This document shows positions 45,954-55,070 of a stretch of 64,000 bases of DNA, piece after piece (the first letter of the stretch is position 1; each line of letters opens with the position of its first letter). This DNA is from Pseudomonadota bacterium (GTDB lineage: Bacteria > Pseudomonadota > Gammaproteobacteria > Xanthomonadales > Xanthomonadaceae), in the NCBI GenBank assembly GCA_021821195.1, contig JAKACT010000002.1, positions 186,001 through 250,000 of the forward strand. Direction: 5' to 3'. Under the pieces are notes generated by a model. It made no database searches. It saw only the letters and a program-made list of their open reading frames with translations, and was not told where the DNA came from. A program made the position numbers and the translations under genes.

Positions 45954-46166
45954 GCCGATTAAGCACGCACCGCGGCGCGCGGTCTCCGGCGCCCGGAAGT
46001 TGCGACCGCGCCGCCAGTGCGTCCGGAAGTCCGTGAATTTTCGGAATTAAAAACCATCAGGTCTGTATCCTGACTACCTGTCTGTGGAATGCAGGGCAGT
46101 CCAACCTGCCCCCGTTTTCCTTTCCCTGACCAGAGAAAGTCGACTCTGGCCCGGATTTTCAAGAAG

Positions 46167-46241
46167 TGAGGATATTTGGGTGTCCCGGTGTTTGCGCCGG
46201 TGTTTTCCGTTGTTCAATAATTATCCCTGACACCATTATTC
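46167..46241 (+). repeat. 75-bp direct repeat, copy 1
   Basis: Starts TGAGGATATTTGGG and ends GACACCATTATTC. The second copy, in the same orientation at 48595-48669, differs at only two positions. Together they bracket the displaced RHS cassette and its immunity-like gene. Confidence 0.9.
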
Positions 46242-46252
46242 GGAGGGTTTAA

Positions 46253-46411
46253 TTCCCTCCGTCCCGATTTATCCAGCTCCCGCCCGACGAACAGGCCGTG
46301 GTGCGCGAAGTGCTCGACAGCTTGATCATCAAATACCAAGCCAGACGCTGGGACTCGGCACGAACTGCGGCAGTCCACAAAACCGCGCAGCGCAAACAGG
46401 CCAGCCGCTAA
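46253..46411 (+). pseudogene. 3' remnant of a coding region, possibly a HTH regulator
   Basis: In-frame segment reading RFIQLPPDEQAVVREVLDSL and IIKYQARRWDSARTA before TAA. It has the look of the C-terminal helix of phage-type XRE regulators, with normal codon use, but there is no start or HTH; upstream sequence is unrelated repeat. A strong terminator follows the stop, consistent with a once-functional gene end. Confidence 0.4.
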
Positions 46412-46413
46412 AC

Positions 46414-46441
46414 AAGCAGCCCCGCAAGTGCGGGGCTGCTT
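46414..46441 (+). terminator. Strong hairpin terminator
   Basis: AAGCAGCCCCGC and GCGGGGCTGCTT form a perfect 12-bp stem around AAGT directly after the TAA of the remnant gene. It also lies just beyond the stop of the convergent immunity-like gene, so it may serve both directions. Confidence 0.75.
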
Positions 46442-46466
46442 TGAAAACTCGAATACAGTGACGGAT

Positions 46467-46904
46467 TTAGCGAATCGTCGACTTAATTACTTGAAGATAG
46501 CTAACGCAACGGCCTTCCTCACCAAGGGGATCCATACAGAACGCTTCTAGCTCTGCATAGGTCAACTGGCGCGGCAACTGGCGACCTCGCTGCACTCGAA
46601 CGGCCAGCGCCTGTATGTAGTCAAGCCGAAGATAAACACTGTCTCCGCGCTTCAACTCATCTCGAAGTGCCAGAAGTGTCGCGCCATCCTGGCTAGCTAT
46701 CACATCGGTAACGCAACTTGGCTGGGGCTTCGACAGCATCGCCCGCTGAATGATCCTAGCGTTCTCGCTAGGATCATTTGTCGCCGACAACGGCTTTCCG
46801 GAACAGATATCGGATGCGGATTGACCGAAAGGAGCACCGCACCCACTGGAACAAGCGAGTGCGGTGGCCATGACCAGTATGGCCAGAGTGCGCCAGCTAG
46901 TCAC
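46467..46904 (-). CDS. Putative immunity lipoprotein paired with displaced RHS tip C
   Basis: 145 aa, start GTG 46904, which overlaps the last 8 nt of the RHS cassette (stop 46897), so the pair is coupled. The N-terminus is a signal peptide ([19 protein letters not shown]) with Cys residues suited to lipid attachment, so the product would face the periplasm. The rest is soluble, with four further Cys that may form disulfides. No family recognised. GC content is clearly below that of the housekeeping genes. The immunity role is inferred from position, size and export, as for the two other tip-linked genes. Confidence 0.6.
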
Positions 46905-48558
46905 ATGGATTGCCTTCTCTCTTCAACTGCTCGGCCATCGTCTTGCCGGCCTCGTGACCCATCCCTTCCCATCCAATTCCGCGATAAGCATCGTAGTCGG
47001 AAAAACCGCTACGCACGCCATTGAGATATTGCCCAAGGTAGCTCGGAAGAAACATCCCAGAAAAGATCCGCTGCTGTGCAACGTGATCGATCTCATGAGC
47101 TAGCAGGGCAATAGTTTCACTACTTCCGGGATGATCCACCCCGGTAGCATGGAAGATGTGATTCCCGATAGTAATCGCTTCGGTTCCGCCCATGAGAGGC
47201 GCCCAATTGAAGCGGATGGCGTTCAGGTCAACGTAGCCTTCGTATTTGCGCAAAGCTTGCTTCTCACATGCACACAACTCCCGGAGGCCGGAAGGGTCGG
47301 TGCTATTAACCGGATTCCCTCCGACATAGGCATACGTATTGACCCCACCAGCAAGCCCAATCGGGTCACTCTGCAAGTACCGCCCCGCATCCGCCAGATA
47401 CTCCCGATACCCGTTGTGCCAGATGCCTGATTCACTGTCGTAGTACTGCCCCGGCAAGCCCAAATTGAGTCCGCCGAAGGTATCCGTCGTCACCGTGCGG
47501 TCGAACGCGGTGTTGTTCGCTTTCCAGACCACGGCCTTGCTGGCGTTCGTGGCCAGTTGCGGGCGGCCCAGATGGTCGTTGTGCAGGTAATAGATCTGGT
47601 TGTTGCGAACCAAGGCCACCGGCTCGCTGCCGTACCAGATGTAGCTGGTCCAAGTTCCATTGGTGTTCTCGGCCAACAGCTGGTTGAAACCCGCATATGC
47701 ATAGCGGCTGGTCGTGCCGGGCGTGCTCTTGGCCATGCGCTGGTCGAGTGCGTTCACGGTGTAGGTCGTCGTGGTGCCGGTGCGGGTATGGCTGGCGAGG
47801 CGTCCGAACGGATCATAGCCCAGGGTGTTGGCCTGTCCCGCCGCATTGGTGAACGCGGCGATGTCGCCATTGGCGTTGGTGGCGTAGGTTCGGGTCAAGC
47901 CGCTGGTCGTCGATTGCAGCAGGCGGTTGCTGGTGGATGCGTAGCTGTAGCTGGTGCTGTTGGCGGGACTGGTATTGCCCGCATTGCTGCGGTTGCCTAC
48001 CGCGTCGTAGCCATAGGTGGCGATGTTGCCGCCCGCCAGCGCCGCCCGCGTCAGCCGCGACAGGCCATCGTACTGGTACTGCTGGGTCTGGCCTGCATCG
48101 ATGCCGTTGGTCATTGCCGCGATCCGACCGTTGGCGTCGAAACCGTAGGTCAGGCTCTGGATCGGGGTGGTGCCGTTCTTCGTGCTGAGCCCGGCCACGT
48201 GGCGGTAGCCGTCGTAGTTGGTCTGCCGCCACAGCCCGTTGCCGTAGTCCAGCGTCTGCGCCGGGCCGAACAGCTGGTAGCCGCTGGGCTCCGCCACCGT
48301 GGTCGTCACCCCGTTCACCGTGGCGGTGATGGCCAGCAGCTGGCTGGCGGCGTTGTAGCCATAGCCCACGCCGATCCCGCTGGGATAGGCGATGCCGGTC
48401 AGCCGGCCCAGGCCGTCGTAGCTGTAGGCGGTGGTGTCGGTGGCGCATCCCATATTAAGTGAACCTGACCCCGCTACTTTGGAAGCTGGCGGCATTGCCA
48501 CCGACCAATGCGGCTTGCGTGAACCGCGAAGTCCGACGTATTCATTAAATGCTGACAC
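46897..48558 (-). CDS. Displaced 5'-truncated RHS cassette with HExxH toxin-like tip (tip C)
   Basis: The open frame of 553 codons begins with 37 residues unrelated to RHS; homology to the complete RHS gene starts abruptly at 48446 ([20 protein letters not shown]). It has YD repeats, the RHS core ([59 protein letters not shown]) ending at DPSGL, then a unique tip of about 145 residues with AHEIDHVAQ, a zinc-peptidase HExxH. No signal peptide or ribosome site is seen, so it is probably a silent reserve cassette, expressed only after recombination into the complete gene. Overlaps its immunity-like gene by 8 nt. Confidence 0.75.
48025..48446 (-). repeat. 422-bp block identical to 51501-51922 (RHS core)
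   Basis: Offset 3476 bp. No difference was found by eye over the whole block, while both genes diverge clearly on the downstream (tip) side, and upstream homology ends outright at 48446. This is the arm by which the displaced cassette could recombine with the complete gene. Confidence 0.9.
48457..48473 (+). repeat. 17-bp repeat AAGTGAACCTGACCCCG, copy 1
   Basis: Exact second copy at 48701-48717; a partial third (CTCTGACCCC) at 48791. The first lies 10 bp beyond the end of RHS homology, so it marks the cassette edge. Confidence 0.75.
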
Positions 48559-48594
48559 GATTATTGCGGATTTTCCGCTGGAAGGTCAAAGAAA

Positions 48595-48669
48595 TGAGGA
48601 TATTTGGGTGTCCCGGTGTTTGCGCCGGTGTTTTCCGTTGTTCAATAATTGTCTCTGACACCATTATTC
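48595..48669 (+). repeat. 75-bp direct repeat, copy 2
   Basis: Same orientation as 46167-46241 and 73 of 75 bases identical. Recombination between the copies would remove 2.4 kb including the displaced RHS cassette and its immunity-like gene. Confidence 0.9.
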
Positions 48670-48700
48670 CTGAACCCAACTCTGTTTGTTACTTGTCAGG

Positions 48701-48717
48701 AAGTGAACCTGACCCCG
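48701..48717 (+). repeat. 17-bp repeat AAGTGAACCTGACCCCG, copy 2
   Basis: Identical to 48457-48473. Short GAACCTGACCCC-like units of this sort recur between genes here and look like remnants of a dispersed repeat family. Confidence 0.75.
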
Positions 48718-48858
48718 TTACTGAGGCCCGTACTGAGGCCCGCGAATGCGGGCCTTGTGCTGTGTGGAACCAGATTCAAACGCTAATGTTCTCTGACCCC
48801 TTTTCCCGGTCGCAGTTGCGACTACAGCCGCAGAAGAAGAAGACCAGCCGCTAAAGAA

Positions 48859-48888
48859 GAAGCCCCGCACTTTCGAGGGCGGGGCTTC
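48859..48888 (+). terminator. Hairpin terminator after the second gene remnant
   Basis: GAAGCCCCGC and GCGGGGCTTC pair perfectly (10 bp, 10-nt loop), 4 bp past a TAA, repeating the arrangement found at 46.41-46.44 kb. Confidence 0.65.
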
Positions 48889-49056
48889 GATCATTTCAAT
48901 CCCGGATTGCGCTGCGCTTATCCGGGCTATGCTGGCTGCCAGCCACGAGTAGAAACGCATCGCGCTGGCGTTTGATTACCGCGTTTTGTCATGACGGGTT
49001 AGAACTGTGGGTGTCCTTGATGGTGCCATCACGCTGGCTGGCTGGTTCATGCGCCA

Positions 49057-49335
49057 TCAAAACATACCAGCCTCATTGCAATCAGGGCCATTGCTGCACA
49101 CTGCCCATCGGACTTTACCTTTTTTCATCCCATCGCCGCCATCGACGCGACGGTCAATCTTTTCGCACTCAACCGTAAGCAGGGTTCTTTGCTCACCGCC
49201 ACTGTGCTGAAGCCACCCCCCTGTGTAGTCCCCCTCATTATTCGTGACTACACAATTGGAATAGTTCGACTTCCCACAGCCACTAAGAATGGCCACGCAA
49301 AAACAGAGGACGGCCGTTAATTTGCGCATCCACAT
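49057..49335 (-). CDS. Putative immunity lipoprotein paired with displaced RHS tip B
   Basis: 92 aa lipoprotein: signal peptide RKLTAVLCFCVAILSGC with a canonical lipobox (LSGC), mature part with four Cys. Its ATG 49335 lies 19 nt inside the preceding RHS tip (stop 49317), so translation is coupled; ATG 49329 is also possible. No family recognised. Low GC, like the tip. Role as immunity protein is inferred from arrangement. Confidence 0.6.
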   Translation of the reverse strand: MWMRKLTAVLCFCVAILSGCGKSNYSNCVVTNNEGDYTGGWLQHSGGEQRTLLTVECEKIDRRVDGGDGMKKGKVRWAVCSNGPDCNEAGMF

Positions 49336-49817
49336 TCCTTCAGCGCAGGCGCAAATATTTCCGACAGGCTTTTGTCACCCTGGAGCCATTCAGACATAAC
49401 AAACGGCGCACGTTCATTTTCAGGACTGAAGATTGAGTTGTACTCCAACCTATACGAATCCCCCATCGCCCTAAATGTATTCCAATAGAACTTCCCGACC
49501 CTGTAATCCATCCATGCCCCGAATCTCCCGATCTCGCCTTTCCCAGCAAGGCCGAAACCACTAACTCGGAACATCCAGTCCATATCCACATCGCCATAGA
49601 TGCTCTGGGCCGGATCGTTCAATGGAATCAGCAAGTCATTGTTAATCGGGTTATAGCGCATTACCGTAGCCTGTTTGCCATTTTTCTTTTCGTAAGCAAC
49701 AAGCTTCTTCAACGCATTGCAATCTACGAGTCCAAGTGGATCGACATTACTAACCGGATTCCCCCCGACATAAGCATAGATATTTTTGCGCAGCAATGTC
49801 AGCCCATACCATGGCAT
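49317..49817 (-). CDS. Displaced RHS toxin tip B (fragment)
   Basis: 166 codons, of which residues 13-30 ([18 protein letters not shown]) are the end of an RHS core; the first 12 overlap the previous gene's end and are not RHS. The remaining 135 or so residues are a unique tip with no recognised domain, rich in aromatic residues (MDWMFRVSGFGLAGKG, MDYRVGKFYWNTF) and ending ECGCAN. Without core or start it is probably a silent cassette. The immunity-like lipoprotein gene overlaps its end. Confidence 0.65.
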   Translation of the reverse strand: MPWYGLTLLRKNIYAYVGGNPVSNVDPLGLVDCNALKKLVAYEKKNGKQATVMRYNPINNDLLIPLNDPAQSIYGDVDMDWMFRVSGFGLAGKGEIGRFGAWMDYRVGKFYWNTFRAMGDSYRLEYNSIFSPENERAPFVMSEWLQGDKSLSEIFAPALKECGCAN

Positions 49818-50302
49818 GGCTTTAGTGAGGCCATCATTTTTAAGGCAGATGACTGCGCATCTAATGTTGAGCCGTCAAAAAATTTTGCGTATATCCAAAC
49901 CGGAGGAAGGTTTGGCTGCGATGACTTAGCGATGAAGAAAAGCCCGTCTCTTTGAAACAACTGGCCGTACACAATAATATGGCTGTCTTTGCGAAGTGAT
50001 ACGCCAGTCACTGCAGCATCTTGAATCATCTTGCTGTAAGCACCAGTCCCCATTTCGCTGAAAATTAGCTCTGCAAAAATTTTGCCTCTCTTGCTGAGAT
50101 GAACCTTCTCCACGTCAATAACGTCATAACGATGGACGGTAAATTCGTCAGCTCCAATAACGCAGACCTTGTAATCGACGCTTATTGCGCGTTCTTTCCA
50201 TGAACTGGCGAACAAGAAGCCGGCCGGCAGCGCCACCAGCAGAATTACAGAAGCAGCTATAGCGCACCACCACTCGCGCCCGCCGCGCCCCCTAACCTCC
50301 AC
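49799..50302 (-). CDS. Putative single-helix immunity protein for the complete RHS toxin
   Basis: 167 aa, start GTG 50302, overlapping the RHS stop by 11 nt. Short basic N-terminus, one membrane helix ([21 protein letters not shown]) and a soluble domain of about 135 residues that would face the periplasm ([38 protein letters not shown]). No family recognised. Lower GC than the RHS core. Its position at the RHS stop is where contact-dependent and RHS toxins carry their immunity gene; this is inference. Confidence 0.65.
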
Positions 50303-53300
50303 AGCCGCAGCCCTTTGGGTTGTTCGGATTGTTCATAGCTCCCTCTACGTGTTGCGGAAGCATGGCTGGACCTGGCGCAGGTATTGGCGGTGCGTTCGGA
50401 AATGCGCCGTAGTTCAAAATTGAACCCGGTAACGTGTCATGACCATAACTCCACCCCATGATCGTATGCATAGCTTCATGCATAGAAGTGTAGTCACCCC
50501 ATGCGCCAGGCACTGCCCAGTTAGCGGCATTGGATCGACCTGTGCCCGTAACCAAATTTACGTTGTTCTCAACGTACTGCGTCGGGCTGCTACTTAACGA
50601 AACTCTCGTCGTAACGTTGTATTGCCCCACTTGACCCGACAGCCCTTTCTCAATCGCGTTCACGATGTTCGTAATATTCGACGGCGTCGCAGCGGGACCA
50701 GTAAAGTGATATGGAATAGTGATGTTGATGTTGTTCCCTTGTGCGCAAATTTCCGCCACTAACCCGCTTGGGTCGATGGCATTTACCGGATTGCCTGATA
50801 CATAGGCATAGGTATTGACCCCACCCCCCAACCCGATCGGATCAGACTGCAGATACCTCCCCGCCTCCGCCAGGTACTCCCGATACCCGTTGTGCCAGAT
50901 GCCCGATTCGGCATCGTAGTACTGACCCGGGAAGCCGAGGTTGAGTCCGCCCAGGCTGTCCTGCGTCACGCTGCGGTCGAACGCATGGTTGTTCGCCTTC
51001 CAGACCACGGCCTTGCTGGCGTTGGTCGCCAGCTGCGGCCGGCCCAGGTGGTCGTTGTGCAGGTAGGTGATCTGGTTGTTGCGCACCAGCGCGACGGGTT
51101 CGTTGCCGTACCAGATGTAGCTGGTCCAGACGCCGTTGGTGTATTCGGCCAGCAGCTGGTTGAAGCCGGCGTAGGCGTAGCGGCTGGTGCTGGCGGCGTT
51201 GGCCTTGGCCATGCGCTGGTCGAGCGCGTTCACCGTGTAGCTGGTGGTGATGCCTGATTTGGTGTGGCTGGCCAGCCGTCCGAACGGGTCGTAGGCCAGG
51301 GTGCTGGCGATGCCGGTCGCGTTGGTGAACGCGGTGATGTCGCCGTTGGCGTTGTGCACGAAGCTGCGGGCCACCCCGCCGGTGGTGGCCTGGGTCATGC
51401 GGTTGCTGGTGGTGGCCAGGGTATAGGCGGTGGTGCTGGCAGGGCTGGTGTTGCCCGCGCTGGTGCGGTTGCCCGCCGGGTCGTAGCCGAAGGTGGCCGC
51501 GTTGCCGCCCGCCAGCGCCGCCCGCGTCAGCCGCGACAGGCCATCGTACTGGTACTGCTGGGTCTGGCCTGCATCGATGCCGTTGGTCATTGCCGCGATC
51601 CGACCGTTGGCGTCGAAACCGTAGGTCAGGCTCTGGATCGGGGTGGTGCCGTTCTTCGTGCTGAGCCCGGCCACGTGGCGGTAGCCGTCGTAGTTGGTCT
51701 GCCGCCACAGCCCGTTGCCGTAGTCCAGCGTCTGCGCCGGGCCGAACAGCTGGTAGCCGCTGGGCTCCGCCACCGTGGTCGTCACCCCGTTCACCGTGGC
51801 GGTGATGGCCAGCAGCTGGCTGGCGGCGTTGTAGCCATAGCCCACGCCGATCCCGCTGGGATAGGCGATGCCGGTCAGCCGGCCCAGGCCGTCGTAGCTG
51901 TAGGCGGTGGTGTCGGTGGCGCCATTGACCGTGTCCTGCCGGCTGGCCACCTGGCCCCAGGGGGTGTAGGTGAAGCTGGCGGTGGTGGCCGCGCCGCCGG
52001 TCTTGGCGGCGCTGCACAGCTGGCCCTTGCCGTAGGTGCAGGCGTCCCAGGTGAAGGCGCGGGCCTGCCCGCCGCCAGACTGGGTCTTCAGGCGGCCCAG
52101 GGCGTCGTAGGTGTACGCCAGCGTGGACAGGTCGGCGCGCTGGACCTGCACCAGCTGGCCGCTGCCGTTGTAGGTGAAGGTGGTGGTGCCGGTATCCGGG
52201 CTGTCCTGCGCCCACAGCAGGCCCAGGCCGTCGTAGACATAGCTGGTGGCCAGGTGGCGCGGATCCTCCACCCGCACCAGCCGGTCGGCCGGATCGTACT
52301 GGAAGGTGGTCACGCCGCCGTCGGGCGCGACGGAGCGCACCAGCCGGTCCAGCGCGTCATAGGTGTTGGTGGTCGTCCCACCCATGGCGTCCTGCACCGT
52401 GGCCACGTTGCCATTGTCATCATACGTGTAGACCACGTGCTGGCCATGGTCCGCGCGCAGGCCGCGCACCCGCCCCAGCTCGTCGTATTCGGTGCGGGGG
52501 GTGTAGAACTCGGTGTCGATCCAGTCGTACCACTCCAGCCGGCCGGAATATTCATCGTAGGTTTTGCCCTGGTAGCGGTAGCCGGTGGTGGCCTGCACCG
52601 GCAGCGACAGGGCGTTGTACTCGAACGCCGTCTGCTCGGTGGTGGTTTCCATGATCGTGTCGGGATTGCCGTCGTCGCTCTGGTACTTGGCACTGTAGGT
52701 GGACGTCAGGCGGTTGGCATCGTCGTAGACGTAATTCAGCACGTCGCCCGTGGGCAGGGTCCGCTTCCACAGGCGGCCGCGACTGTCGTAGGCGAAGGTG
52801 GTGGTCTGCACCGCGCCGTTCACGGTGCGCTTTTCGGTGAGCAGGTGACCGCGTGCGTCGTAGGTGTAGTTGGTGATGGCGCCATTGGGCCCTACCATCC
52901 GCCCCGGCAGCCCCAATCCGTTGTACAGGGAATAGGTGGTGGCGTGATCAAGGCTGTTCTTCACAGACAGCAGGTTGCCCATGGTGTCGTAGATCATGGT
53001 CACCGCATCGCCCAATCCCGCCAGCGGACCATCGATGACCACCGTCGCTAGCAGGCCGTTGGGGTGCATCGCATAGCCGTAACTCGTTGTCAGCGTCTGG
53101 TTGGCCACGCCGTTCGGACTCAGGTTCTTGCGTGAAATCGACTGCACCAGCCCGTCACTGCGATAGACGTAATCGGTCTGCGACCAACCGGTGACACGCT
53201 CCTGAACCATGCGCCCGTTGGCATCCCACGCATAGGTGGTCTCCCGTGCCAGCGGCGTCCCGGCAGCCTCCACCTTGCGAAGGAGCTGGCCCTTCGTGTT

Positions 53301-54539
53301 GTAGTCGTAGTCGGTGAGGTTCTGATTGAAGTCGGCGGCAACATCCACGAAGCCGTTGGCGTCATAGGTGATGTCGCGATAGCTGGCATCGCAATTGGCA
53401 GAAAGATGGCCGGTCTCCGACTGTAGCTTGCCGTTCTTGAACACCGAGGTGGTCTGCTTGCCTAGCGGATTGGTCCGCAGCACGGTTAGCTGTCCATTGG
53501 CGCCAGCCGTGTATGAGAAGGTGTATTTCTCAACACCGCTGGCGTGTTCGCTGCTAATCGCGCGGCCAGCGCTGTCGTAGGCAAAGGTCGAATAACGGAC
53601 ACTATTGAAGCTCTTGCCCAAGAACTGGCTGACATCACCCGACGTGGCGTAGTGGTAGGTGATCGCAGTTGAAGGCGTGCCGGGCAAGGTCGTGGCGGCG
53701 AGCCGGTGCTGGCCGGAGCCGAAGACGTTGGCGGTGTAGGCGTATCCAAAGGCATTGCCGGCCGGATCCCTCACGCTAGTCAGCTGGTCACCAGTCCAGT
53801 AAAACGTGATCTGCTTGCCTGATGTGTGAACCACGCTTGCCAGGTAACCATTGCTGTAATTGAAGGTCAGCCCGATTCCACGCGAATTCTTCTGCGTGGT
53901 GACAAGCCCCTGCGGGTTGTAGGTCTCGACCGTATTGTCTTCCGCGTAGTAGATGTAGCCACCCGCGCCATCCGACACAATGCGCGCCGTGGATTGCGAC
54001 TTGTCTTCCCACCAGGCGGCACTCGGCGATGTGCCGTAGACGAACTCCACTTGGCGCCCATCGTTGCGATAGATGGTGATGTGTTGCCCGTCGGTGGCCT
54101 TTTCCAGCCTGAGGTCAAAATTGCTGACCCAGTACTTGCCGAACAGGCCCTTGCGGTTCCAGTAATGGTTGTAGGTGCGCTTCAGGTACAGCGGCACTTC
54201 ACCCGTGGTCTCGAAATCCAGTTCCGGCTCGATCTTGTTGCCGGTTGCATAGTCGATGGGATTGCCTGCGAGGGAGCACGTGTTCGTCGCAGGACTGCCA
54301 CTGCCGGAATATCCACTCCTTGCAGGGGAAACGGGGCCAGTCTGGCTGTTGTAAAACGAGTGCGCCGAATAGCGAAAGAGGAAGTCCCCAAACCCGCCTG
54401 CGTCATACAGCGCTATCCCAATCACCGTGATTTTATCCAAGTTGGTCGGGTCATCGACCTGCTGGACAGCAAGGGCAGGGGCGTTGAAGCCGACAACAGC
54501 GGTCATGACCGCAATCTTTAGAGTAGTGCGAACGGACAT
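50292..54539 (-). CDS. Sec-exported RHS/YD-repeat polymorphic toxin with HExxH tip (tip A)
   Basis: 1415 aa. Signal peptide ([23 protein letters not shown]), then a DUF6531-type start ([30 protein letters not shown]), many YD repeats through residue 1130 or so ([21 protein letters not shown]) and the RHS core ([39 protein letters not shown]) closing at DPSGL near residue 1256. The tip of about 160 residues has H1354-E-A-M-H1358, a zinc-peptidase motif, and ends in a GCGCGG tail. The RHS shell normally encloses the tip until release. ATG 54539 with GGGGAGG before it is preferred over an earlier frame start. Export by Sec rather than a PAAR/type VI route is suggested. Confidence 0.88.
51501..51922 (-). 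repeat. 422-bp block identical to 48025-48446
   Basis: Lies inside the YD-repeat region just before the core of the complete RHS gene; see the partner block for details. Confidence 0.9.
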
Positions 54540-54629
54540 GTGCCTCCCCAAGGCGATTGGTGCCGTATGGCGTGCGTGGCATCGAACCATTGAATGGTTG
54601 AGTTTACCTTGCAATTTCGGCGCGTGGCT

Positions 54630-54923
54630 TCACTTGGAGTTCCCAGGCTTGGGAACTCCACACATAGACGGCCGTACACCCCAAACCTCTACGGCATTCA
54701 GATCCGTGGGCGGTGGCGGCGTTCCCCAGATCTCGCATCGATAAGACGACGTGGAACCATCGGAACTGGGCTCCATGATGCATTTCGTTTCATTGATCGG
54801 CTGAACCGCATGCACAGGAACAGTAAATCTCACCGCCAGCGCAACCAACGCCAGCACCTTGCGAATACGTATCTTTTCTCCCCATGCAGGTAACGATGAC
54901 GCCGTGGAATGACAAATGGACAA
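54630..54923 (-). CDS. Small secreted protein upstream of the RHS gene, hypothetical
   Basis: 97 aa with a hydrophobic export segment (KVLALVALAVRFTVPVHAVQ) after a basic stretch. The mature part has three Cys and ends near PPPPTDLNAVEVWGVRP, which resembles the N-terminus of the mature RHS protein ([12 protein letters not shown]). It is on the same strand, 90 bp ahead of the RHS gene, and may be co-transcribed as a chaperone or export partner (inference). The start is uncertain; the first 15 residues may not be translated. Confidence 0.5.
   Translation of the reverse strand: MSICHSTASSLPAWGEKIRIRKVLALVALAVRFTVPVHAVQPINETKCIMEPSSDGSTSSYRCEIWGTPPPPTDLNAVEVWGVRPSMCGVPKPGNSK
54636..54659 (-). 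terminator. 10-bp hairpin at the end of the small gene before RHS
   Basis: GGAGTTCCCA and TGGGAACTCC form a perfect stem with a 4-nt loop, within the last codons of the small secreted gene. With no T-run it may act as an attenuator or RNA processing site before the RHS gene. Confidence 0.35.
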
Positions 54924-55070
54924 AATCCCCGTGCCTATTCAAGGTAAGCATCGGAGGCTTGTCCACAAGCTGATATTCGGGACAAGGAAAAGAACAGTGG
55001 CCGCCCGATTCCCCACTCCGCGCCTGCTTCGGCGACAATGCGCTCCCGTCCCCGCACAAGGTTCGCGCCC

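Follow-up and report, generated by a model that had tools for sequence, protein, structure and literature searches.

Stored tip and immunity-like cassettes behind a signal-peptide-bearing RHS gene of Thermomonas, and a cysteine-parity pattern among RHS tips

Organization of the RHS locus

A 64,000-nucleotide (nt) stretch of a Thermomonas genome, referred to here as the window (assembly GCA_021821195.1, contig JAKACT010000002.1, positions 186,001 to 250,000), carries on its minus strand an RHS locus that has the appearance of a polymorphic-toxin system with tips held in store. The open-reading-frame list gives six frames in the order RHS gene, immunity-like gene 1, tip 2, immunity-like gene 2, tip 3 and immunity-like gene 3, and all six lie where an initial annotation had placed a Sec-exported RHS protein followed on the same strand by two displaced RHS tips and their small genes.

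The main RHS gene (50292..54539) encodes a protein of 1415 amino acids (aa) that ends in tip 1. Its best start is the ATG at 54539, which has GGGGAGG just upstream as a ribosome-binding (Shine-Dalgarno) site, and a signal peptide is called by a simple hydropathy rule, the rule behind all signal-peptide calls reported here. The protein matches the profiles RHS_repeat (E 7.4e-53), DUF6531 (E 3.9e-23), RHS (E 1.2e-6) and Rhs_assc_core (E 1.7e-21), and scores far under the cut-off of the full-length RHS_core model NF041261 (156 of 2000 bits). It has the parts of an Rhs polymorphic toxin, namely YD/RHS repeats, an Rhs-associated core ending in DPxGL, a variable tip and an adjacent immunity-like gene. 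No PAAR domain was matched in it up to E 1; this mark of the type VI secretion system (T6SS) type is lacking, and a signal peptide is present instead. The genome has a VipA gene elsewhere and a gene for the type II secretin GspD (495.7 bits, cut-off 351.35). Relatives of the main protein occur, among named genomes, in T. flagellata, T. haemolytica and Thermomonas sp. S9, and no gene is broadly conserved upstream of full-length RHS frames, the largest shared group comprising three loci.

Tip 1 (50292..50759) consists of the 155 aa after a DPSGL boundary, with an HEAMH motif and cysteines at positions 5, 151 and 153. The first displaced frame (49317..49817), 166 aa long, is made up of a 30-residue stub, boundary included, and the 136 aa of tip 2 after DPLGL, with cysteines at positions 3, 132 and 134; its match to the tail of Rhs_assc_core (E 4.9e-4) is below cut-off. 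The second displaced frame (46897..48558) has 425 residues up to the end of its DPSGL boundary, including RHS repeats matched by profile, followed by the 128 aa of tip 3 with an HEIDH motif and cysteines at positions 4, 6 and 127. BLAST at E 1e-3 places each of the three tips in a group of its own, in agreement with the initial annotation that they differ after DPxGL.

Each tip overlaps its own small gene, and the overlaps, when recomputed, gave the same values as before: 11 nt between tip 1 and immunity-like gene 1 (49799..50302, 167 aa), 19 nt between tip 2 and immunity-like gene 2 (49057..49335, 92 aa), and 8 nt between tip 3 and immunity-like gene 3 (46467..46904, 145 aa). The tip 2 frame also overlaps immunity-like gene 1, by 19 nt. 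The products are membrane proteins or lipoproteins by appearance, as had been proposed: the first has an N-terminal transmembrane segment, the second is lipoprotein-like and bears a lipobox, and the third is likewise lipoprotein-like.

Families of the tips and immunity-like proteins

The initial annotation recognised no family for any of the tips. This stands for tip 2, which has no Pfam match, and does not hold for tip 3, which is an eCIS_core (PVC-type) HExxH domain (Pfam E 1.6e-9, 38.2 bits against a cut-off of 22). It probably does not hold for tip 1 either. The window's own tip 1 has no Pfam family; a relative in locus L052 (L and G numbers denote loci and genomes of the comparison) matches Reprolysin_3 (E 3.8e-5, 24.6 bits against a cut-off of 22.4), a cut-off that is not reached by the window's tip 1, L047 or L055. 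The HE..H residues are invariant in all six aligned members of the tip 1 family, which is probably metzincin-like. Tip 2 had no relative other than itself in 296 family genomes, 369 class genomes and plasmids, and none on a full-length carrier in the family and class genomes. Sequence searches of the PDB with tips 1 and 2 returned nothing, and AlphaFold models of tip 2 alone (mean predicted local distance difference test score, pLDDT, 43.4) and of tip 1 with one relative (41.7) were left unused. Distant relatives of the other window tips are found on full-length carriers, at 38% (L052) and 29% (L055) for tip 1 and 37% (L063) for tip 3. T. flagellata keeps a third peptidase type in store, a VanY/M15 tip. 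None of the parts of the locus matched an unrelated housekeeping family above cut-off in Pfam or NCBIfam, the kind of match that the initial annotation had named as a sign against it.

The product of immunity-like gene 1 matched no Pfam family above cut-off. The product of gene 3 is weakly like the immunity-like protein beside the T. flagellata relative of tip 3 (E 5e-4 in a 16-sequence set). In frames adjoining tips, with the start codon picked by a simple score, a hydrophobic N-terminus was counted in 59 of 70 beside non-DPDGR tips versus 26 of 41 beside DPDGR tips.

Exchange of tips between carriers and stored cassettes

The proposal that displaced tips are a reserve for swapping gained support from sister genomes, in which exchanged tips are found on different carriers. 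The RALTDC tip forms the end of a 1390-aa RHS frame in the congener G010 (full-length as a frame only, with no signal peptide called) and in T. flagellata belongs to a stored cassette. The pair is 94% identical in the tip (122/130) and 89% in the immunity protein (133/150), and the main cores of the two genomes are 47% identical over their last 900 residues. The core fragment of the stored RALTDC tip is 48% identical to G010 and 90% identical to the main gene of T. flagellata. In a second case the full-length gene of T. flagellata terminates in the RECYY tip, which Thermomonas sp. S9 keeps in store, with 98% identity in the tip (134/137), 97% in the immunity protein (59/61) and 91% in the core fragment. 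No such exchange was seen between close strains for the three tips of the window itself.

Within the window, the core fragment ahead of tip 3 is 87% identical to the main gene over 1153 nt, and this displaced tip, with core sequence common to the main gene, has the makeup of an orphan Rhs cassette. Sliding identity revealed a 400-nt tract (48040..48439) in which ten consecutive 40-nt blocks are 100% identical to positions 51516 to 51915 of the main gene. An adjoining stretch is mostly 73-90% alike, with the lowest neighbouring blocks falling to 58% and, at the boundary, to 68% (40-nt steps). A perfect tract of this length beside diverged sequence is as expected after recombination.

Odd cysteine numbers in tips with a G-L boundary

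All three tips of the window contain three cysteines, and their odd number proved to be part of a wider pattern. The family set comprised 117 distinct tips from family loci, divided into two groups by boundary and limited to tips of 60 to 400 aa in frames free of X and complete within the locus, with a boundary matched by regular expression. Cysteine number was odd in 71 of the 74 tips with boundaries other than DPDGR (67/69 for strict DPxGL) and even in 39 of the 43 DPDGR tips. A second set was drawn from loci of other Gammaproteobacteria, some of them glimpsed before counting; 23 of 126 hits were unusable (8 of these being run-offs), and tips of at least 60 aa were kept. Here the DPxGL tips were odd in 35/39 (21/24 among tips outside earlier loci), and tips whose boundary ends in Y, N, F or H were even in 14/16. 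The third set consisted of frames with the boundary proline replaced, which earlier patterns had skipped and which cover part of the missed boundaries. Tips after D-x-x-G-L were odd in 28/29 and those with other endings in 3/5. As five of the 29 had been listed earlier with a shifted boundary, 24 were fresh, and 23 of these were odd, two (L064, L209) having been seen before the count. Combined, DPxGL tips are odd in 102/108 and DPDGR tips even in 39/45 and odd in 6/45. Of the tip families kept apart by BLAST, 70 include a DPxGL member; 64 of these are odd throughout, five even throughout and one mixed. The statistics treat tips and families as independent, which is not assured. No odd-cysteine rule was found in the literature searched, including parts of PMC3482391 and PMC8636562.

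The commonest number is three (39 of the 74 non-DPDGR family tips), often laid out with one cysteine near the start and C-x-C at the end; tips with one, five or seven cysteines are likewise odd. A C-x-C tail occurs in 34 of these 74 tips versus none of the 43 DPDGR tips (shuffle mean 0.56, largest of 1000 shuffles 3). A clamp formed by the head cysteine and the C-x-C tail was the first reading of this layout and was dropped because the odd count is the wider pattern. Many DPDGR tips (for example L198 and L199) have two cysteines close together shortly after the start, and some have a second such pair towards the end.

The tip 1 family has one, three or five cysteines on eight G-L carriers and none on two DPDGR carriers, with the catalytic HE..H kept in the six members aligned. 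It is one of three families seen on both kinds of carrier, and a second fits the rule as well (L192 with one cysteine, L318 with none and L293 with four). As a control, cysteines after the lipobox were counted in lipoprotein-like genes adjoining tips, and the number was even in 21/23. In family chains with a signal call, counted for cores of at least 1150 aa, an even core is joined to an odd tip in 19 of 19 G-L chains, and an even core to an even tip in 10 of 11 DPDGR chains. With cores even in these family G-L chains, the leftover cysteine sits in the tip and is without an obvious partner in the chain.

Genomic context

The locus fills the interval (45954-55037) between two genes labelled by eye, which we take to be phhA and fbp. 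The corresponding interval was compared in 20 of 24 congeners, and in 19 of these 20 both flanks were found with no RHS match at E 1e-4. The gap measures approximately 1552 nt in L071, 354 nt in L072 and 63 nt in L073, the three nearest congeners by phhA identity, and the interval ranges among congeners from approximately 63 nt to 9.1 kb. G019 (L086) has no fbp within the stretch, shows RHS-like matches and carries an Rhs core fragment approximately 7.6 kb past phhA; because of this fragment, RHS insertion near the site is not unique to the window.

A genome-wide repeat search found an 81-nt direct repeat on the plus strand at only two places, 46161..46241 and 48589..48669 (96% alike), which flank the unit of tip 3 and immunity-like gene 3. 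A YCTGACMCC-type motif occurs five times (46225, 48463, 48653, 48707 and 48791), clustered at the edges of the same unit, and motifs like it are found separating cassettes in L047 and L049 as well as in other RHS loci; nothing relevant to this motif was present among the literature matches listed. Upstream of the main gene lies a small minus-strand frame (54630-54923) that is in phase with the RHS frame and stops just ahead of it; it may carry a signal sequence, after which three cysteines follow. Its reading as a remnant of the RHS N-terminus was rejected for want of BLAST support, and it has no convincing relative. The same genome (G000) has more RHS pieces at contig ends, at the start of C4, the end of C5 and the start of C8 (L208, L209 and L016), and by visual comparison the C5 tip is similar to that of a 1500-aa RHS frame in G010 (L064).

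Interpretation and alternative explanations

Taken together, the locus is probably a polymorphic-toxin locus with swappable stored tip and immunity cassettes, and G-L tips probably follow an odd-cysteine rule whatever their fold. The main gene would make an exported RHS shell bearing a peptidase-like tip, with export by Sec and perhaps then by a type II system, for which GspD is encoded in the genome. Tip 1 would be the expressed and active toxin; as in known Rhs proteins, it may be cut after G-L and would then act outside the cytoplasm, where membrane-anchored immunity proteins could protect the producer and its kin on the envelope side. The two downstream cassettes may serve as the reserve, and recombination in the common core could replace tip 1.

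Several observations weigh against this explanation or its cysteine component. Immunity-like protein 1 is without a relative among the 15 other immunity-like proteins compared. In the class set, other boundary endings follow no clear rule (odd in 15/20 for the remainder and in 3/8 for DPDG[REKN]), and the third family seen on both carriers breaks the rule, as L215 on a DPDGR carrier has one cysteine like its G-L relatives. One of the two odd lipoproteins is the window's own immunity-like protein 3 as counted, for which the next possible lipobox would make the number even. The count of 19 chains includes two with a doubtful signal call (L148, L194) and omits five G-L chains without a signal call (L063, L047, L160, L193, L214); in an earlier, cruder count 22 of 27 GL-like frames had an odd total and L063, L148, L193, L197 and L214 an even one. 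Eleven G-L chains from outside the family are mixed, seven having an even core and odd tip, two both odd and two both even.

As for the fate of the odd cysteine, the most likely reading of the counts is that all but one of the tip cysteines form disulfides inside the tip and the last is bonded to another molecule, any particular choice of which would carry low confidence. A disulfide between tip and immunity protein is disfavoured, since the immunity lipoproteins are mostly even. A fold-independent rule for cleavable G-L tips, by which exactly one cysteine finds no partner within the chain and is bonded to another molecule (a second tip, a carrier or the target), is put forward only tentatively. 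It is rather unlikely that the odd cysteine instead bonds the RHS shell and so tethers the cleaved tip. The fragments of known cleaved Rhs proteins stay together, according to part of PMC8636562, and two of the eleven chains outside the family (L275 and L262) combine an odd core with an odd tip, so that a tip-core bond is possible there; C-x-x-C is also present at the second core site in L275, L264 and L268. However, L261 has five cysteines in the tip and none in the core, in L195, L151, L152 and L157 the cysteines of the core look by eye to be grouped in close pairs and the tips are still odd, and the core is even in all 19 family G-L chains with a signal call. Under this reading, the tip cysteine would in Lysobacteraceae compete with two lone core cysteines, one before the DUF6531 region and one approximately 300 residues on, and so leave another core thiol free or provide an exchange switch.

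That the displaced tips are decaying relics without function is unlikely. They have no export signal, and one relative, in L026/L053, looks frame-shifted by eye, yet the tips and immunity-like genes of the window are open frames, near-identical tips recur on full-length frames, and the displaced GL-like tips of the family remain odd in 30/33. It is improbable that the C-x-C tail and one more cysteine serve as a metal site of three cysteines instead of forming one disulfide and leaving a free thiol. The predominance and layout of three cysteines would suit such a site, but tips with one, five or seven obey the same odd rule, and even numbers prevail in the exported lipoproteins next to the tips, as disulfides would lead one to expect. 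There is similarly little likelihood that the stored pairs work inside the cell as toxin-antitoxin modules, as described for Salmonella in part of PMC7043789: the start of tip 2 within immunity-like gene 1 would permit coupled translation through the 19-nt overlap, but the immunity-like proteins bear signal or anchor sequences and the tip relatives match peptidase families.

With tips stored behind a probably Sec-exported RHS protein, the locus extends store-and-swap to another export type. If the odd-cysteine rule holds, cysteine number obeys one law over unrelated toxin folds and tells two kinds of RHS boundary apart. The rule would predict an unseen bond and may tell which tips work on which carrier. 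A common thiol would act as a socket through which toxins of unrelated kinds could replace one another on a single carrier, and the odd cysteine would be a new structural constraint on the tips that can be swapped in.

Relation to known systems

Enteric Rhs carriers are of the T6SS type. The arrangement of a main gene followed by displaced tip and immunity pairs with common core sequence is like that of the orphan rhs-CT/rhsI cassettes of Enterobacteriaceae, as described in parts of PMC3967940 and PMC2935791. The displaced pairs of enterics have 522 bp of core at 95% identity and can fuse to the main gene, and evidence from Salmonella suggests that recombination can put a stored cassette behind the export part (PMC3967940, in part). 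The Thermomonas locus differs in its Sec-signal carrier, in a 400-nt tract at 100% identity, and in immunity-like proteins that look envelope-anchored.

The RHS shell, with two DPxGL motifs approximately 18 residues apart, is also like that of Photorhabdus Rhs1, a T6SS protein in which the two motifs have the same spacing and cleavage was shown after the second, according to the relevant part of PMC8636562. Unlike T6SS Rhs effectors such as Rhs1, the window's RHS protein has a signal peptide and no PAAR match.

The tips themselves have counterparts among described toxins. In the survey by Zhang (2012), as far as the consulted part of PMC3482391 goes, a PVC-metallopeptidase is an occasional RHS tip, and tip 3 resembles it as an eCIS-core HExxH domain after RHS repeats; PVC-dependent systems are said there to lack immunity genes, whereas tip 3 adjoins an immunity-like gene. 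Tip 1 is like the Tox-MPTase 1-5 or zincin-like toxin tips in the same part of that survey in being a short HExxH peptidase-like RHS tip, and differs in that a relative of it scores as reprolysin-like. The store-and-swap layout is of a kind already known from enterics, and the carrier here is a Sec-type RHS protein of Thermomonas, with congeners found in both states.

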